Below, piece after piece: positions 25,534 through 53,142 of a stretch of DNA of 64,000 nt (its first letter is position 1; the number at the start of each line of letters is the position of its first letter). The notes under the pieces are model-generated. The model had not been told where the DNA came from, ran no database searches, and saw only the letters and a program-made list of their open reading frames with translations. The stretch is taken from positions 1,116,001-1,180,000 of the forward strand of contig NZ_JACCFM010000001.1 of NCBI RefSeq assembly GCF_013410665.1, in the 5' to 3' direction. This DNA comes from Leifsonia psychrotolerans. GTDB taxonomy: Bacteria; Actinomycetota; Actinomycetes; Actinomycetales; Microbacteriaceae. The position numbers and the translations under genes were made by a program.

Positions 25534-26007
25534 ATGGAGACGTTCATTTCGGACTACGGCTGGATCATCTGGCTCGCGCTTATTTTGGTCTTTGTGACGG
25601 TCGAGATGGTGACCCTGGAACTGACGTTCTTCATGATCGCTCTCGGCAGCCTGGGCGGCCTGCTCTCGGGCTTGCTCAACGCACCCTGGTGGCTGCAGCT
25701 GATCATCGCCGTCGGCGTCTCCCTCTTGCTGCTGCTCGCCATCCGTCCGCCGTTGCTCAGGGCTCTGAAACGCGGCGGAGACCCCAGCAAGACCAACGTG
25801 GACGCCCTGCTCGGCCTCGGTGGGCGAGTTGTGCTCTCCATCACCGAGACCGGTGGTCAGGTACAGCTTGACAACGGCGAAACCTGGACCGCTCGCCTCT
25901 CCCCCGCGACCCCCTCGCGGACGGTCGAACCGGGAGAGACGATTACCGTAGCTGAAATCGATGGAGCGACGGCAATCGTCGTTCCCACTGAAAGGACGTC
26001 ATCATGA
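25534..26007 (+). CDS. NfeD-like membrane protein
   Basis: 157-aa short NfeD protein with an N-terminal pair of membrane hairpins (about residues 8-70) and a C-terminal OB-fold domain (LGLGGRVVLSITETGGQVQLDNGETW). Such proteins work as partners of SPFH/stomatin scaffolds. The stop overlaps the following SPFH start (ATGA), which is the usual nfeD-SPFH operon. ATG 25534 follows GAAGAGGGGG. Confidence 0.85.
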   Translation: METFISDYGWIIWLALILVFVTVEMVTLELTFFMIALGSLGGLLSGLLNAPWWLQLIIAVGVSLLLLLAIRPPLLRALKRGGDPSKTNVDALLGLGGRVVLSITETGGQVQLDNGETWTARLSPATPSRTVEPGETITVAEIDGATAIVVPTERTSS

Positions 26008-33710: not shown

Positions 33711-34721
33711 CTAGTGCCCCGCCCGGTCGGGCAACGGTTCGTCGTCGTACGAAGCGGCCCCGGCCGCTGCCCATTCGGCGACCGCCTGTCGCGCTGCCAC
33801 GGGTTCGATGACGGTGACGATGCCGGCCATACTCGCGACCAGACGTTTCAGGCCGTGAAAATGAGCGACGCGTACTCTCGTCCGAATGAGATCAGCGCTT
33901 CGTGCGGTGGGGCTCGGTTCGACGCCTTCGGGTCGGTAATCGGCCAGCAATGCGAGGGCTGAGGCCGGAAGTTCCAGGAGCACAGTCACGTCGTCGTCAG
34001 AACCCTCGAACAAGCGATCGGGGACCACGACGTCGGCGGCGTGCTGACCGACATTCGAGTCGGTCTCGCGCACGGCACGCATACGATCGAGCCGGAATGT
34101 GCGCACCGCCTGCCGCAGATGGTCCCATCCGCGCAGGTACCAGTCGTTGTCAACCGACTCGATGCGCAACGCGTCGACCCGACGCTGCACCTGCTCGCCC
34201 CGAGCATTCAGATAGTCGAACTCGACTTGCACGCCGTGACGCACGGCCGCCTGAATCGTCGCGAGCGCCAGGTCGGCCTCCGCCCCCGAGACGGCAAGTT
34301 CGCTCGGGGTGCCTGACGAACCACGGGTGAGCTTGGCCATCAGCGAGGCGATGGCCTCACGGTCGGCGTTCGCGGGCAAGGCCGAAAGATATTGCAGACC
34401 GGCGATGAGCGCGGCAGCCTCGCGGGAACTCAACCGGGGTGCGTCGTCGATGGCCACCAAATGGGTGAGCACAATTCGGTCGTTCTGCTCGAATTCATCC
34501 CACTGGATGTCGAAGAGGTCACCGTGCAGATATTGGCTCGTCTCCCCGGGGATGCCGGACATTGCGATGAGTCGCACGGCATCGCGCACGCGGTCTGCGC
34601 CCACCGAGAAGTGAGTGGCGACATCCGCAACGCTCACATCGTCATGTTCGGTGAGGTAGGGAACCAACGAGAGCAAGAAAGTCAGTTTGTCGGCGGCGCC
34701 GAATCCGCCTCGGGTGCTCAT
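33711..34721 (-). CDS. pafC: WYL-domain transcriptional regulator PafC
   Basis: 336-aa regulator: N-terminal winged helix-turn-helix (LTFLLSLVPYLTEHDDVSVADVATHFSV), WYL domain containing the DNDWYLRGWDHLRQAVRTFRLDRM core, and a WCX extension. With PafB it forms the heterodimer that activates the RecA/LexA-independent DNA-damage regulon in mycobacteria; ssDNA bound by the WYL domains is the signal. Its start overlaps the pafB stop by 4 bases. A matching target promoter is seen at 51230-51252. Confidence 0.9.
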   Translation of the reverse strand: MSTRGGFGAADKLTFLLSLVPYLTEHDDVSVADVATHFSVGADRVRDAVRLIAMSGIPGETSQYLHGDLFDIQWDEFEQNDRIVLTHLVAIDDAPRLSSREAAALIAGLQYLSALPANADREAIASLMAKLTRGSSGTPSELAVSGAEADLALATIQAAVRHGVQVEFDYLNARGEQVQRRVDALRIESVDNDWYLRGWDHLRQAVRTFRLDRMRAVRETDSNVGQHAADVVVPDRLFEGSDDDVTVLLELPASALALLADYRPEGVEPSPTARSADLIRTRVRVAHFHGLKRLVASMAGIVTVIEPVAARQAVAEWAAAGAASYDDEPLPDRAGH

Positions 34722-35755
34722 GCGTCAGTGCTCTTTTCGCCATGGGTCGACGGAATTCCGTGGGCATCCCGCACTCCGACAAGTCTGCTGCGCACCGCTT
34801 GGCGAAGCGCCGCGGGTGAGTGCACCGTGACCTCGGGGCCGTACCCCGCCAACTCATCGGCGAGAATATTGAGGTCGGTGTAGTGCAGAGTGAGGCTGGT
34901 TTCAGTCGGTGCCGTCCCCTGCTGCCGCCTGCCGAGTCGCACGGCTGCATCGCTGCCCGGCTCGACCTCGATTTCGGCGAGATTGGCATGCCAGAGCCGG
35001 TCAAGCTCATCGAGAGCCGCCTGCGCTTGGCCTTCGCTGTGCGGCGCGTTCGTCGCGCCGGCAACGTTCTGCACCGGGCCGACGATGCGGGAGAGCAGGA
35101 ACGTGCGGGACGCGGACGCCTGTTGATCGGTGGCGGACAGATGCCAGCGGCCGTCGTGTAGCACCAGAGCTCGCGGAGCGACCTGCCGCCGTCGAGGCTC
35201 GATCTCCCCGGGCTTGAGGTAGAGAAACGCCACAACAGTTCCGCGATCCAGCGCCTTGGCAAGCGGCTCGAACGCCGCCTCTCGAGCACGTACACTCGGC
35301 GCATAGCCGAGAATCGGATCGGTCGATTCACCACCCAATGAACTGAGTTTCGTCAGCGCCCGCCGAGACTCCGTCGAGAGGGATCCTTCGCGCCACACCG
35401 TTCCTGCCAGCTTCAGCAGCATGAGCTCATCCGGCGTGAACGCCACGTCGCTCGGCAGATCGTAGAGCCCCTTGGGAATGCGGTAACGCAGGGAGTGATT
35501 GCTGCCGGGGTCATCGGTCGGTTCGATCGTTTCCAGTGGAATGCCGAGTTCCCGGATGTCGTCCTTGTCGCGTTCAAACTGGCGTTCGAGACTCGCGTTG
35601 TCACCGCCCGTGACATAGCGCTGGCGGTAGCCCTGCACCGTCGACAGAATATCTGCCTTCGTCAACCCAATCTCAGTGGCGATGAGCGCCAGCACCAGGC
35701 TGAACAGTCGTTCCTCGATCGCGACAGCGTGTGGTTTCTCAGAAATGGGCGGCAC
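34718..35755 (-). CDS. pafB: WYL-domain transcriptional regulator PafB
   Basis: 345-aa partner of PafC with the same HTH-WYL-WCX order (HTH around residues 10-60, WYL core around LVLHDGRWHLSATDQQASASRTFLLSRI). The start is GTG 35755, which follows a TAGAAT -10 box by 7 bases without an SD, so a leaderless transcript is likely. In Mycobacterium pafB follows the Pup ligase gene pafA; here no pafA is present upstream. Confidence 0.88.
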   Translation of the reverse strand: MPPISEKPHAVAIEERLFSLVLALIATEIGLTKADILSTVQGYRQRYVTGGDNASLERQFERDKDDIRELGIPLETIEPTDDPGSNHSLRYRIPKGLYDLPSDVAFTPDELMLLKLAGTVWREGSLSTESRRALTKLSSLGGESTDPILGYAPSVRAREAAFEPLAKALDRGTVVAFLYLKPGEIEPRRRQVAPRALVLHDGRWHLSATDQQASASRTFLLSRIVGPVQNVAGATNAPHSEGQAQAALDELDRLWHANLAEIEVEPGSDAAVRLGRRQQGTAPTETSLTLHYTDLNILADELAGYGPEVTVHSPAALRQAVRSRLVGVRDAHGIPSTHGEKSTDA

Positions 35756-35762
35756 AAGGGCG

Positions 35763-35768
35763 ATTCTA
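35763..35768 (-). promoter_or_regulatory. -10 box TAGAAT of pafB
   Basis: On the minus strand TAGAAT is followed by CGCCCTT and then the GTG start, so pafB appears to head its own leaderless transcript rather than being read from an upstream pafA. Confidence 0.5.
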
Positions 35769-35870
35769 GATGATTGGGGCGGTCGACTCGGGACCCGAGC
35801 CAGTCGAATGCCCCGCGCCTACCGGTGACGGCGGGTACGGGGCATTCTGCAGTGCGGGGGCTGCGACTGG

Positions 35871-36839
35871 TTAGTTCACGCCGAGGATATCGACGACGAA
35901 GACCAAGGTGGAGTTCGCCGGAATCTTTTCGGACGCCTTTTCGCCGTAACCCTGATCGGGCGGGATGACAGCAATGACCTGAGAACCGACCTTCTGGCCG
36001 ATCAGCGCCTCGGCGAAGCCGGGGATGACGCCGCCCTGAGTCTTCGATCCGTCAGCAGCAACGAACTGTGCCGGAGTGCCGCGTTCCCAGCTGGAATCAA
36101 AGACCAGCTTGGTGTCCCAGACCACACCGGTGTACTGAACTGTCACCGTGTCGCCTTCCTTGACGGTGGCCCCCGTGCCCTTCTTGAGCAGACCAATCTT
36201 CAGCGTGTTCGGTGCTGCTCCGGCTGGAATCGTGATTCCAGGCTCACCCTTCGCGCCGAGAACGACGGCGGGTAGGCCGGAGATCTCCGGCTGGTCGGCG
36301 CCGTTGGCGCGCGGCAGGTAAGCCTTGACCACGTCGATCACGAAGATGAGCGAATCATCTTTCGCGACGCCGAGCGCTTCCTGGCCACCCTGCGGGCCGA
36401 AACCATCGTCAGGTGACACGGCGACGGCGACGCGGGACCCTTGCTGAGCGCACAGCAGGCCATCACGCAAACCGGTGATCGTGGCATCGCTCAGAACGAG
36501 GGACGGCTGGCTGGTGCCGTCGTACCCGGTCTGCTCGATGGATTTGCCTGTGCTTCCGTTGTAGACGCTGAGGTCAACCTTCACCATCTGGCCCTCGACG
36601 AGATCGGGTCCGGTGCCCGGGATGACCACACTGCGCTGGGTCTTTTGGGTCTTCAACGGCGTCGGAAAGTCGACCGTGGGCGCCTTCCCGAAGTCGCCGG
36701 TGACGTCGATCAGTGCGGAGGCGGCTCCGGCGGAGACCGGCGACTGACAATCTGACGCCGACGTGTCGGCTGCGCTGCAGCCGGTCAAAGCGACGCCGAG
36801 CAGCGCGGCAACGGCGATCAGTGCTGATGCTTTACGCAC
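35871..36839 (-). CDS. lipoprotein with two FKBP-type peptidyl-prolyl isomerase domains
   Basis: 322-aa secreted lipoprotein with lipobox LTGC (lipidated Cys near residue 21). The first FKBP-like domain is about residues 75-175 (VKVDLSVYNGSTGKSIEQT...). The second, better conserved, is about 215-322 (VTVQYTGVVWDTKLVFDSSW, VIPGFAEALIGQKVGSQV, PPDQGYGE). It should help fold exported proteins at the membrane surface. GTG 36839 follows GAGGACTT. It occupies the place between pafB and trmI where proteasome genes lie in Mycobacterium. Confidence 0.88.
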   Translation of the reverse strand: MRKASALIAVAALLGVALTGCSAADTSASDCQSPVSAGAASALIDVTGDFGKAPTVDFPTPLKTQKTQRSVVIPGTGPDLVEGQMVKVDLSVYNGSTGKSIEQTGYDGTSQPSLVLSDATITGLRDGLLCAQQGSRVAVAVSPDDGFGPQGGQEALGVAKDDSLIFVIDVVKAYLPRANGADQPEISGLPAVVLGAKGEPGITIPAGAAPNTLKIGLLKKGTGATVKEGDTVTVQYTGVVWDTKLVFDSSWERGTPAQFVAADGSKTQGGVIPGFAEALIGQKVGSQVIAVIPPDQGYGEKASEKIPANSTLVFVVDILGVN

Positions 36840-36944
36840 AAGTCCTCAATTCAATACGGGGTGTGGGTACAAAGATAGTGAAAGTCGGTGCGGCACGAAT
36901 CGCGTGTGGCGGGCCGCACGCCATCCTAACCGCGATCGAGGCAC

Positions 36945-37946
36945 TCAGTCGGCGTCGAGGTCGCGCGCTTTCGAGAGCGCAGCGCTGGCGCCGGCGGCGC
37001 GCACGCGCTTGCGCATGCTCTTTCCGCTCACGTTACGTTCTCCAAGAGCACCCGGGGTCCAGGCCTCAAAATCAGCATCGGCAAAGTCGGTTTTCGACGG
37101 GCGACGCTTCAGCTCGGGCAGGATGGTGTCCGGTGCGAGGCGTCGCGCCGTGATGAGAAAGCCGGTGTGTCCGATCATGCGGTGGTCGGGACGCACGGCA
37201 AGGCCCTCAACGTGCCAGCCGCGTACCATCGTTTCGTTTGAATCAGGGTTCGTGTACAGCCCACAACCCCGGATCGCCTCGGCGACACGCGACAGCTGTG
37301 TGACGGTCGCCACGTAGCACAGCAGCACACCGCCGGGCTTGAGCGCGTCAGAAACGGCCGGCAGGCATTCCCACGGGGCGAGCATATCGAGCACGACGCG
37401 GTCGACGCTGTGCGCTTCCATCACGTCGGGCAGCGCGTCGGACAGGTCGCCGAGCGTGATCGTCCAATTCTCAGGGTCGTGCCCGAGGAAGGTGGCGATG
37501 TTGTCGCGGGCAACATCGGAGAACTCTTCGCGGCGCTCGAACGAGGCCAGGCGCCCCGATGGCCCGATGGCCCGCAGGAGCCAGAGCGAGAGAGCGCCCG
37601 AGCCGACACCGGCCTCGACGACGGTGGCTCCGGGGAAGATGTCGGCCTGAGCCAGAATCTGCGCGGCATCCTTCGGATAAATGATCGCTGCGCCACGCGG
37701 CATCGACATGACGAAGTCGTTCAGCAGCGGGCGCAGCGCAAGGTGCTCGACGCCCACATTGTTGGTGACCACCGAGCCGTCCGGCAGCCCAATGATGTCA
37801 TCGTGGGCCAGGATGCCTCGGTGGGTGTGGAAGACCTTGCCCGGTTCGAGCGAGATGGTGTTCAGCTTGCCTTTGGGGCCGGTGAGCTGCACGCGGTCGC
37901 CCACTCGGAAGGGCCCGCTATTTTGGATGACCTGGTTGTCGCTCAT
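36945..37946 (-). CDS. trmI: tRNA (adenine(58)-N1)-methyltransferase TrmI
   Basis: 333-aa SAM-dependent enzyme that makes m1A58 in the T-loop of tRNA. The N-terminal beta domain is followed by RGAAIIYPKDAAQIL, the SAM motif VVEAGVGSGALSLWLLR and the VVLDMLAPWECL motif. ATG 37946 (MSDNQVIQ) fits the family N-terminus and overlaps the HAD stop by 4 bases; the longer frame would run into the HAD gene. A basic C-terminal extension follows position ~290. Confidence 0.92.
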   Translation of the reverse strand: MSDNQVIQNSGPFRVGDRVQLTGPKGKLNTISLEPGKVFHTHRGILAHDDIIGLPDGSVVTNNVGVEHLALRPLLNDFVMSMPRGAAIIYPKDAAQILAQADIFPGATVVEAGVGSGALSLWLLRAIGPSGRLASFERREEFSDVARDNIATFLGHDPENWTITLGDLSDALPDVMEAHSVDRVVLDMLAPWECLPAVSDALKPGGVLLCYVATVTQLSRVAEAIRGCGLYTNPDSNETMVRGWHVEGLAVRPDHRMIGHTGFLITARRLAPDTILPELKRRPSKTDFADADFEAWTPGALGERNVSGKSMRKRVRAAGASAALSKARDLDAD

Positions 37947-38713
37947 GCGCGTGATACGTCCTCGAGTTCGTGCGCCGTCGGGCGGGAGGTGATGGTTTCG
38001 GAGTGGTTCGAATCGAGGGAGCCGATCCGGTCGTGGTACAGCTCGGCAAGGTCGTCGAGCCCCCGTCCGGCCAGGCTGGCCCACAGGATGTAGTCGTCGG
38101 CTGAGGCCAAGGCGATCTGGTGGGGAACACCGATCGCGATGGTTCCAGCCGACACCGCGGCGGCCAGGCCCGGCACCGAGTCTTCAATTGCGATGCAGTG
38201 CACGGGATCGACACCGAGGATGTCTGCGGCGAGCAGATAGGCCTCAGGATGCGGTTTAGGGTCGGTGACCATGTCTCCGGCGACGATCGTCGCAAAGGGT
38301 GACTCGCCGAGTTGCTCGGTGATCTTGTCGGCAATCTGCTGGGCCATCCGTTTCAACGACATGGTGACGAGCGCCATGGGAACCCCGGCCGCAGACAAGG
38401 CCGTGAGGAGTTCCAGCGCACCAGGGCGCCAGGGCAGTCCATGGCTGTTGAGCTGTTCTTGCACCCGATTGGTCAGCAGGGTGACGATTGCATCGATCTC
38501 CATGTCGACGCCGGCGCCCTGCAAGATTTCAGCCGACTTCTCGAGCCCGTTACCGACCATTTGCATGCAATCCTCATGCGTCCAGGTGCCCCCGAATGAC
38601 GCGACGAGTTCAGTCTCGGCCAGCATCCAGTACGGCTCGGTGTCGACAATGGTCCCGTCCATGTCCCACAGGACTGCGGCAGGAAGAGAGGAATTGGTTC
38701 GGATCAGGTTCAC
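37943..38713 (-). CDS. HAD-superfamily phosphatase (beta-phosphoglucomutase-like)
   Basis: 256-aa HAD hydrolase of the PGMB/phosphatase subgroup. Motif I is WDMDGTIVDTEP, motif II VTMSLKRM, motif III Lys in the DPKPHPEAYLLA segment and motif IV IEDSVPGL. The likely start is GTG 38713, which follows TACACT (38722-38727) by 8 bases; a TTG at 38722 is the alternative. The substrate is unknown. It is co-transcribed with trmI. Confidence 0.82.
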   Translation of the reverse strand: MNLIRTNSSLPAAVLWDMDGTIVDTEPYWMLAETELVASFGGTWTHEDCMQMVGNGLEKSAEILQGAGVDMEIDAIVTLLTNRVQEQLNSHGLPWRPGALELLTALSAAGVPMALVTMSLKRMAQQIADKITEQLGESPFATIVAGDMVTDPKPHPEAYLLAADILGVDPVHCIAIEDSVPGLAAAVSAGTIAIGVPHQIALASADDYILWASLAGRGLDDLAELYHDRIGSLDSNHSETITSRPTAHELEDVSRA

Positions 38714-50521: not shown

Positions 50522-51223
50522 TTACCGATTCACCGGCTCGAGCAACTCGGGGCCATTGCCCGTAATCGGTCCGACCTCATAGAAGCTCAGCAGGTCGGCG
50601 GTCTCGCGCGAGGCCGCCACTGCGGCGTCGACGAGCGACTGGTCGCCGACCGTCGTCGGGTCGAGCCAGTGATCCCACCATTCCTCGGGCAGCACCACCG
50701 GAATACGATCGTGAATCTCGGCGAGGGGACCCTGGGCATCCGTCGTGAGGATCGTGGCGGAAAGCACCCAGCGAGCCGAGTCGGCCTCGGCCAGCGCCGG
50801 GTTGCGCCACCAGGAGTAGAGACCGGCGAAGGCCAACGGCAAACCATCGTCGGAATGCACGAAATAGGGCGTCTTTGTCGTGCCGACCGTATGCCATTCG
50901 TAGTACCCGGTCGCCGGGATCAACGCCCGTTTCGATGCGACCGAGTTCTTGAAGGTGGCCTTTTCGGCCGCCGTCTCGGCGCGGGCATTGAATGTGGGGT
51001 ACGGCGAGACAAGCTCTTTCGCGAACGACGGCACAAGCGACCAGCGCGCGGCCTCAAGCCGGCGCACCGCCGGCTCTTGCTTGGCGGACTCGAGCACGAT
51101 CGGAATCTGCTCGGTCGGCTTGACGTTCCACGACGGTTCGGGAATGTTCTCGCCCTCGTGCTCGACGTCGAACATCGCGACAAGGTCGGGCGCTGTATCA
51201 GTGATGATGAATCGACCACACAT
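50522..51223 (-). CDS. yedK: SOS response-associated peptidase / HMCES-type abasic-site crosslinking protein (SRAP family)
   Basis: 233-aa SRAP protein. After Met removal the N-terminal Cys of MCGRF forms a thiazolidine crosslink with abasic sites in ssDNA, shielding them from nucleases. Other family parts are YPTFNARAETAAEK, the catalytic TGYYEWHT Glu, and VLSATILTTDAQGPLAEIHDRIPVVL with the His. The start must be ATG 51223: the ATG at 51229 would place Met-Ser before MCGRF and hide the Cys, and the -10 box touches it. It has a PafBC-type promoter. Confidence 0.93.
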   Translation of the reverse strand: MCGRFIITDTAPDLVAMFDVEHEGENIPEPSWNVKPTEQIPIVLESAKQEPAVRRLEAARWSLVPSFAKELVSPYPTFNARAETAAEKATFKNSVASKRALIPATGYYEWHTVGTTKTPYFVHSDDGLPLAFAGLYSWWRNPALAEADSARWVLSATILTTDAQGPLAEIHDRIPVVLPEEWWDHWLDPTTVGDQSLVDAAVAASRETADLLSFYEVGPITGNGPELLEPVNR

Positions 51224-51229
51224 GCTCAT

Positions 51230-51252
51230 AGGCTAGCGCCCCGCACCGACAA
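51230..51252 (-). promoter_or_regulatory. RecA-independent (PafBC-type) DNA-damage promoter of the SRAP gene
   Basis: Minus strand, 5' to 3': TTGTCGGTG (51252-51244), 8 bases (51243-51236), TAGCCT (51235-51230), 6 bases, ATG 51223. This matches every fixed position of the RecA-NDp consensus TTGTCRGTG-N8-TANNNT described in mycobacteria and activated by PafBC. The spacing to the start predicts a leaderless mRNA. Confidence 0.8.
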
Positions 51253-52252: not shown

Positions 52253-52281
52253 TTGACATATTCGAATGCGTGTTCGAGCAT
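52253..52281 (+). promoter_or_regulatory. LexA box and promoter of imuA-imuB-dnaE2
   Basis: TCGAATGCGTGTTCGA (52262-52277) matches the actinobacterial LexA operator TCGAAC-N4-GTTCGA except at one position. It lies between a -35 TTGACA (52253-52258) and a weak -10 (GAGCAT, 52276-52281, spacer 17), so LexA would block the promoter. The predicted start site coincides with ATG 52288. Confidence 0.82.
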
Positions 52282-52287
52282 TGAGGT

Positions 52288-53142
52288 ATGTCTATTCCCG
52301 CCGCCTCCCCCGCTTCCGCGGGGCGTGAGTATGCGATTCGCGGCACTGCCGTGCGCGAATCGGTGCGCGGTATTGAGCAGGAATCGGGGCAGGAATTCGT
52401 AGAAGAATCCGAATCCGAATCGCGACACAGCCGTGTCGCAGCGCTGCAGCAGCGCATCACGGGAATGCAGGCCACGACGCTGCCCACGAAGACGCTGCCC
52501 ACGCTACCCGCGCTCTCTGACATTCTTCCGGGCGGAGCACTCAAGCAGGGTGCCGCCTACTCGGTACTCGGCTCCACCACGCTCGTGATGGCCCTTCTGG
52601 CCGGCCCCTCACAGAGCGGGTCGTGGTGCGGGGTCGTCGGCCTGCCCGACTTCGGTGCCGAAGCCGCAGCCCGGTTCGGCATAGACCTCGAGCGCCTCGT
52701 GCTCGTCCCGGATCCCGGTGCCCACTGGCTCACGGTCACGGCCGCCCTCGTCGATGTTCTCCCGGTGGTCGTCACCCGCCCGCCCCTGCAGGCCAGCGAC
52801 TCCGATGTGGCCCGCCTCGGAGCCCGGCTCCGTCAGCGCGGCTGCGCGTTGATCGTGGTCGGCGAGTGGCCGCAGAGCGAGGCACAGTTGCGCATCGTCG
52901 ACAGCCGGTGGAGCGGTCTCGGGCACGGCCACGGGCTGCTCTCGGCCCGCGAAGTCACCGTCGCCTCCGTCACCGGACGCACCGGCTTTGCTCGCCCCCG
53001 CAGCAGCCGCCTTCTCCTGCCGGATGCCGCCCAGCAGTTCCAGCAGGCCGCTCGGCCGGTCACCCAGCCGGCAGGCGTACCGCCGGCAGCCGGCACTCGA
53101 AACTGGCCGCGAGCCGTTCCCGTACTGAACCGGGCCGGGTAG
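52288..53142 (+). CDS. imuA: mutasome accessory protein ImuA (RecA-like fold)
   Basis: 284-aa protein at the head of the imuA-imuB-dnaE2 cassette. The middle (ALSDILPGGALKQGAAYSVLGS...) is RecA/SulA-like, but the Walker A is degenerate, as in actinobacterial ImuA'. The Glu/Ser-rich N-terminus (QESGQEFVEESESES) is low complexity. It helps load ImuB and DnaE2 during damage-induced mutagenesis. It probably has a leaderless start at ATG 52288; the nearby GAGG is too close to serve as an RBS. Confidence 0.85.
   Translation: MSIPAASPASAGREYAIRGTAVRESVRGIEQESGQEFVEESESESRHSRVAALQQRITGMQATTLPTKTLPTLPALSDILPGGALKQGAAYSVLGSTTLVMALLAGPSQSGSWCGVVGLPDFGAEAAARFGIDLERLVLVPDPGAHWLTVTAALVDVLPVVVTRPPLQASDSDVARLGARLRQRGCALIVVGEWPQSEAQLRIVDSRWSGLGHGHGLLSAREVTVASVTGRTGFARPRSSRLLLPDAAQQFQQAARPVTQPAGVPPAAGTRNWPRAVPVLNRAG

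Follow-up and report, generated by a model that had tools for sequence, protein, structure and literature searches.

The window, a stretch of 64,000 nucleotides from Leifsonia psychrotolerans (contig NZ_JACCFM010000001.1, positions 1,116,001 to 1,180,000), carries an SRAP gene of the HMCES/YedK type with a promoter motif of the PafBC (RecA-NDp) type directly before it, the genes pafB and pafC, and a gene of a neighbouring mutasome. The relevant features are the following.

50522..51223, minus strand: SRAP (HMCES/YedK-type) gene, PF02586, starting at the ATG that places Cys at position 2, stop included
51252-51244, minus strand: PafBC/RecA-NDp -26 element TTGTCGGTG, read from the sequence and re-cut by coordinate, with register-locked enrichment before SRAP genes
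51246-51251, minus strand: core TGTCGG, corresponding to -28 to -23 from the predicted start
51235-51230, minus strand: -10 element TAGCCT, read from the sequence
51224..51229, minus strand: ATGAGC between the -10 element and the start codon, containing an in-frame upstream ATG
51223, minus strand: predicted start of transcription at the A of the SRAP start codon, as suggested by the -10 position
34718..35755, minus strand: pafB, WYL and WCX domains, matching the PafB half of PDB 6SJ9 (E 1.7e-35)
33711..34721, minus strand: pafC, HTH_PafC (113 bits) and WYL domains, matching the PafC half of PDB 6SJ9 (E 1.2e-42), overlapping the end of pafB
52262-52277, plus strand: SOS-like box TCGAATGCGTGTTCGA, 10 nt before the imuA' ATG, weak by sequence alone
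52288..53142, plus strand: imuA' of the neighbouring mutasome (NCBIfam NF058630, 185 bits)

The product of the SRAP gene matches PF02586 with 204 bits in a profile search and is the sole match to this family in the 3.82-Mb genome. Its nearest solved structures in a structure-database sequence comparison are those of YedK, and Cys2, the Asn of NAR, the Glu of GYYEW and the His of IHDR are invariant across 11 aligned SRAPs. By its family match, Cys2 and the conserved Asn, Glu and His, the protein belongs to SRAP, and capping of abasic sites is its predicted activity. The catalytic Cys was found at position 2 as proposed, encoded by the ATG TGT read from 51223 on the minus strand; in YedK and HMCES, this residue becomes the N-terminus once Met is removed (PMC9436759). 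The protein shares with YedK and HMCES the PF02586 fold family, Cys2 and the active-site residues, and the difference at issue lies in regulation only.

Read on the minus strand, the upstream region consists of TTGTCGGTG, 8 nt, TAGCCT and 6 nt (ATGAGC), followed by ATG TGT from 51223. The original prediction had described an exact PafBC motif with N8 spacing, TAGCCT and 6 bases to the ATG, and all of these elements were confirmed by direct reading and by re-cutting the sequence by coordinate. As in PafBC promoters, the TGTCRG core is present and is separated by 10 nt from TANNNT in the direction of the gene, and no TTGACA-like -35 box was seen in our own reading of the sequence upstream of SRAP. 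The window holds a single match to TTGTCRGTG-N8-TANNNT and 100 dinucleotide shuffles yielded none; the genome (3.82 Mb) has three exact matches, and none to the reversed pattern used as control. A chance origin of the motif is ruled out by these empty shuffles and reversed control and by the register-locked enrichment before SRAP genes described below; the observation of the promoter motif is correct and beyond chance. The two other exact 9-mer sites of the genome are less convincing, one falling within the terminal part of a putative coaBC ORF and 100 nt upstream of metK, and the other having no ORF of at least 90 codons opening within about 380 nt. It was reported for M. smegmatis that the helix-turn-helix (HTH) of PafB, as placed by cryo-EM, contacts the -26 motif (PMC11804915), and TGTCGG at -28 to -23 agrees with that position.

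With 6 nt separating the end of the -10 hexamer from the ATG, transcription is expected to start at the A of this codon, and from this register the SRAP mRNA is predicted to be leaderless. These 6 nt contain an in-frame ATG at 51229 (M-S-M-C...), which was absent from the original prediction and because of which the mechanically called ORF begins two codons earlier. A transcript beginning at 51223 would exclude the ATG at 51229 and secure Met-Cys. Translation from the ATG at 51229 was judged unlikely, as this codon sits in the promoter and its use would bury Cys2.

The core of the motif is used well beyond SRAP in this genome, where TGTCRG-N10-TANNNT occurs 39 times, compared with 8 for the reversed pattern. 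In 16 of the 39 cases, an ATG or GTG opening at least 150 codons lies 6 or 7 nt downstream, one of these sites (L048) sitting inside a larger ORF; as background, 1.2% of positions elsewhere in these loci show this leaderless register, and 2.7% where TANNNT is present. Judged by sequence or by the best family match, 19 core motifs precede genes of DNA metabolism; several of these genes are truncated in the retrieved loci and for that reason score below the curated cut-off. These comprise recA, uvrB, polA, ligA, dnaX, holB, sbcD, radA, ftsK, hsdM, SRAP, a pcrA-like helicase, a UvrD-type helicase, a RarA-like ATPase, an epsilon-type exonuclease, a dGTPase, a TM0106-type nuclease, a CoiA-nuclease-like protein and a J-domain/NERD protein. 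Not all of them are in the leaderless register; the motif of the hsdM-type restriction-modification gene (C1:69002-69023) lies 123 nt upstream, and damage control of this type I system is possible. The remaining 20 sites include those at clpX, metK, proteins of unknown function and a phage-tail-like ORF, as well as sites with no convincing gene.

Conservation of the TGTCRG block before SRAP orthologues, on which the original prediction depended, was examined in the family of the window by taking 110 SRAP upstreams, 105 of them readable, from 150 genomes. TGTCRG stands at -28 in 24 of these 105 upstreams and at -29 in 4, with a mean of 0.047 per other offset, and the full arrangement is found in 28, spread over 27 genomes and 20 genera. 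For the comparison of sets, distinct upstreams were counted with TGTCRG starting at -30 to -27, the expectation being 0.02 to 0.21 per set. TGTCRG was in register in 27/101 upstreams of the family minus the own genus (0.19 expected), 10/65 of the own genus, 6/58 of the order minus the own family, 32/77 of a named set (Mycobacterium, Mycolicibacterium, Nocardia and others) and 6/13 of a hand-picked subset of the class, and in none of the 27 readable upstreams among the best 30 class matches. The block is thus strongly enriched in register before SRAP orthologues of the family, the genus, the order and the set rich in Mycobacteriales, and the prediction is not refuted by this comparison; only a minority of SRAP genes in each of these sets has it, however, and its distribution is patchy (10/65 in the genus, 0/27 among the best class matches).

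The -10 element is far more widespread. The leaderless register NANNNT-N6/7-ATG was found in 79/101 upstreams of the family, 65/65 of the genus, 54/58 of the order, 64/77 of the named set, 12/13 of the hand-picked class subset and 26/27 of the best class matches, and the -26 element is absent from most SRAP genes (55/65 in the genus, 74/101 in the family, 52/58 in the order and 27/27 among the best class matches). The first two congeners drawn, G078 and G141, have the -10 element and lack TGTCGG; the SRAP of G078 is 81% identical to that of the window, and in both genomes SRAP lies 15-16 kb from pafC, as in the window. A constitutive leaderless sigma-A promoter, with TGTCGG fortuitous or a relic in this species, would account for a -10 register so much commoner than the -26 element (65/65, 54/58 and 26/27 against 10, 6 and 0 in the genus, order and best class matches) and for the two congeners without it, but it leaves unexplained why TGTCRG occurs in exactly the SRAP register 30 to 150 times above expectation in four sets (family, genus, order and named, with 0.13 to 0.21 expected) and why the motif is used before many repair genes of the own genome; we regard this reading as improbable. 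The pattern is most simply read as an old, leaderless promoter of SRAP that acquired or lost the PafBC element many times. In two genomes of one genus, G119 (C1:1326350-1326401) and G049 (C1:962925-962976), two core motifs stand in tandem, 30 bp apart.

The assignment of PafB and PafC to 33711-35755 held up, both by the domain matches and by the matches to the two halves of PDB 6SJ9, and PafC also matches the PafC chain of PDB 7P5X. No protein of the Pup-ligase/Dop family (PF03136) was found in this genome; pafBC (region 33711-38084) is present all the same.

The relation between motif and regulator was assessed in the 150 family genomes, grouped as having a clear PafC (E<=1e-50; 124 genomes), a weaker one (20) or none at 1e-20 (6). 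The genome-wide ratio of motif to control is 5.20, 4.09 and 0.83 in these groups, respectively. The six genomes with no detected PafC are all small (0.9-1.5 Mb). In 17 further genomes no larger than 1.8 Mb, in which PafC is present, the ratio is only 2.21, which makes genome size a partial confounder of this comparison. Absence of PafC means here that it was not detected as an orthologue, since three of the six (G065, G088 and G144) gave sub-threshold matches; G100 has no PafC match at 1e-20 and was counted as weak because of a divergent HTH_PafC match narrowly exceeding the cut-off. Before SRAP, the strict motif was found in 28/91 upstreams of clear-PafC genomes and 0/14 of the rest (P 0.019) and the relaxed motif in 44/91 and 0/14, shared ancestry being ignored in both comparisons. 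Genomes with a weak PafC have a 4.09-fold motif excess, yet the motif is found in 0/13 of their SRAP upstreams. As a control, uvrB in the best 30 of the 150 genomes yielded 18 strict motifs, all of them 6 or 7 nt from a start codon; they are present in 17/19 clear-PafC genomes and in 1/11 of the rest, the one being G100 (P 2e-5, shared ancestry ignored). The genome-wide motif excess thus follows PafC.

These data also bear on which regulator reads the motif. A regulator of the ClgR type could read it instead of or beside PafBC: PMC5656591 recounts a report in which this promoter was recognised in mycobacteria by a Clp-gene-like regulator, and in the own genome a small HTH_3 gene, read as ClgR-like, has a core motif (L038, C1:216277-216298) 54 nt upstream, some 0.8 kb away from the one preceding recA. 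However, the cryo-EM placement of the PafB HTH on the -26 motif (PMC11804915), together with the motif excess and the uvrB motif that follow PafC when genomes are compared by its presence, makes this highly improbable.

For LexA, the SOS-box consensus is TCGAAC-N4-GTTCGA. The original prediction had placed the neighbouring mutasome under LexA; what speaks for this is a single box, TCGAATGCGTGTTCGA, which is one mismatch from the consensus and stands 10 nt before the imuA' ATG, but it is not special by sequence. CGAAC-N4-GTTCG occurs in the window at 7 places with one mismatch and at 71 with up to two (51 expected), and because matches of that quality are common in the window, only the position speaks for the box at imuA'. 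LexA/SOS control of SRAP itself, like that of the adjacent mutasome, would fit the reported co-occurrence of SRAP genes with SOS mutagenesis genes across bacteria (PMC3765255), the imuA' start 1.07 kb from SRAP, and an imuA' match within the 1.5-kb flank in 2/29 other SRAP loci of the family. Nevertheless, it is extremely improbable, as the SOS-like box lies at imuA', on the opposite strand and past a Band-7 gene, and no GAACNNNNGTTC was found near SRAP: the window contains just two, at 25618 and 35702 (1.05 expected). The second of these, GAACAGTCGTTC at 35702-35713 on the plus strand, lies just inside the start of pafB and is probably due to chance, since 1.05 matches were expected and two found. 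Transcription of SRAP and the mutasome as one operon is ruled out by their opposite strands and the Band-7 gene between them. The locus resembles the SRAP genes in SOS mutagenesis neighbourhoods (PMC3765255) in that SRAP is near an imuA'-type gene, and differs from them in that the SRAP promoter has a PafBC-type motif and no SOS box, GAAC-N4-GTTC not being present in it.

With these alternatives weighed, transcription of SRAP from a PafBC-dependent promoter, which makes it a predicted PafBC target, is very likely real. The original placement of SRAP in the PafBC regulon is supported by the comparison of genomes, namely the register enrichment before SRAP and the motif excess that follows PafC; since the enrichment is patchy and the excess is absent where PafC is not detected, SRAP is best described as a predicted PafBC target whose element was probably gained or lost repeatedly. 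In the proposed mechanism, SRAP would have a sigma-A promoter composed of the -26 element (TGTCGG) and the -10 element, with no evident -35. DNA damage would generate single-stranded DNA (ssDNA), which was reported to activate PafBC (PMC11804915), and ssDNA-bound PafBC would let the housekeeping polymerase use the promoter. Transcription would begin on the A of the start codon and give a leaderless mRNA, from which the leaderless start would yield only Met-Cys, and removal of Met would then expose Cys2, the catalytic residue for capping abasic sites. In the own genome, SRAP is one of roughly two dozen genes of DNA repair and replication that share the promoter core. PafBC binding, damage induction, the leaderless start and RecA independence at SRAP are thus expected from this model. 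More tentatively, in actinobacteria that have PafBC, ssDNA may induce SRAP and also be where SRAP works: PafBC would sense the very ssDNA in which abasic sites pose the greatest danger, with shielding placed on the PafBC alarm and the error-prone mutasome on LexA, the PafBC element having been repeatedly gained or lost on an older leaderless promoter; we hold this broader reading to be possible, though somewhat less likely than not.

The PafBC promoter and regulon are already known (PMC5656591; PMC6789036; PMC8151990; PMC8223512), and so is a link between SRAP and operons of SOS mutagenesis (PMC3765255). The promoter described here agrees with that stated for M. tuberculosis (PMC8151990) in its -26 core, its gap of 10 nt and a -10 of the form TANNNT, and PafB, PafC and the targets recA, uvrB and ruv-type repair genes are shared with the mycobacterial system, whereas the leaderless register before SRAP and many other targets and the lack of a detected Pup-ligase family protein in this genome set it apart. 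In S. venezuelae, a Streptomyces study saw no apparent conservation of the M. smegmatis motif (PMC9380542), which counts against the PafBC reading. A comparable case is the macrodomain gene SCO6735 of Streptomyces coelicolor, assigned to the RecA-independent response by its RecA-NDp promoter, with UV induction stated in a section heading (PMC5087735); it encodes a different protein, the likeness being the assignment of a gene by this promoter, and for SRAP damage induction is a prediction. No paper joining PafBC with SRAP was found in the literature searched; regulon supplementary tables were outside the reach of this search, so the mycobacterial part may already stand in such a table. The available main text of PMC8223512, PMC8151990, PMC5656591, PMC10693628 and PMC9380542 contains no mention of SRAP-related terms, and the sampled portions of the literature on Rv3226c deal with a subject other than DNA damage. 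SRAP is predicted to be a new addition to the known PafBC regulon with a leaderless twist, and not a new kind of system. By this addition, an abasic-site shield would join the genes predicted to answer a RecA-independent damage alarm, from the family of the window to Mycobacteriales. The comparison shows the PafBC motif in use outside mycobacteria, in a genome with no detected Pup-ligase family protein, and the motif excess is not seen where PafC is undetected.

Further core matches were noted in the window on the minus strand. The one at 52522-52501 is antisense within imuA' and probably due to chance. At 47238-47217, TGTCAG-N10-TAGTTT lies 57 nt upstream of a gene with a J-domain and a NERD (nuclease-related) domain (47159-46221).
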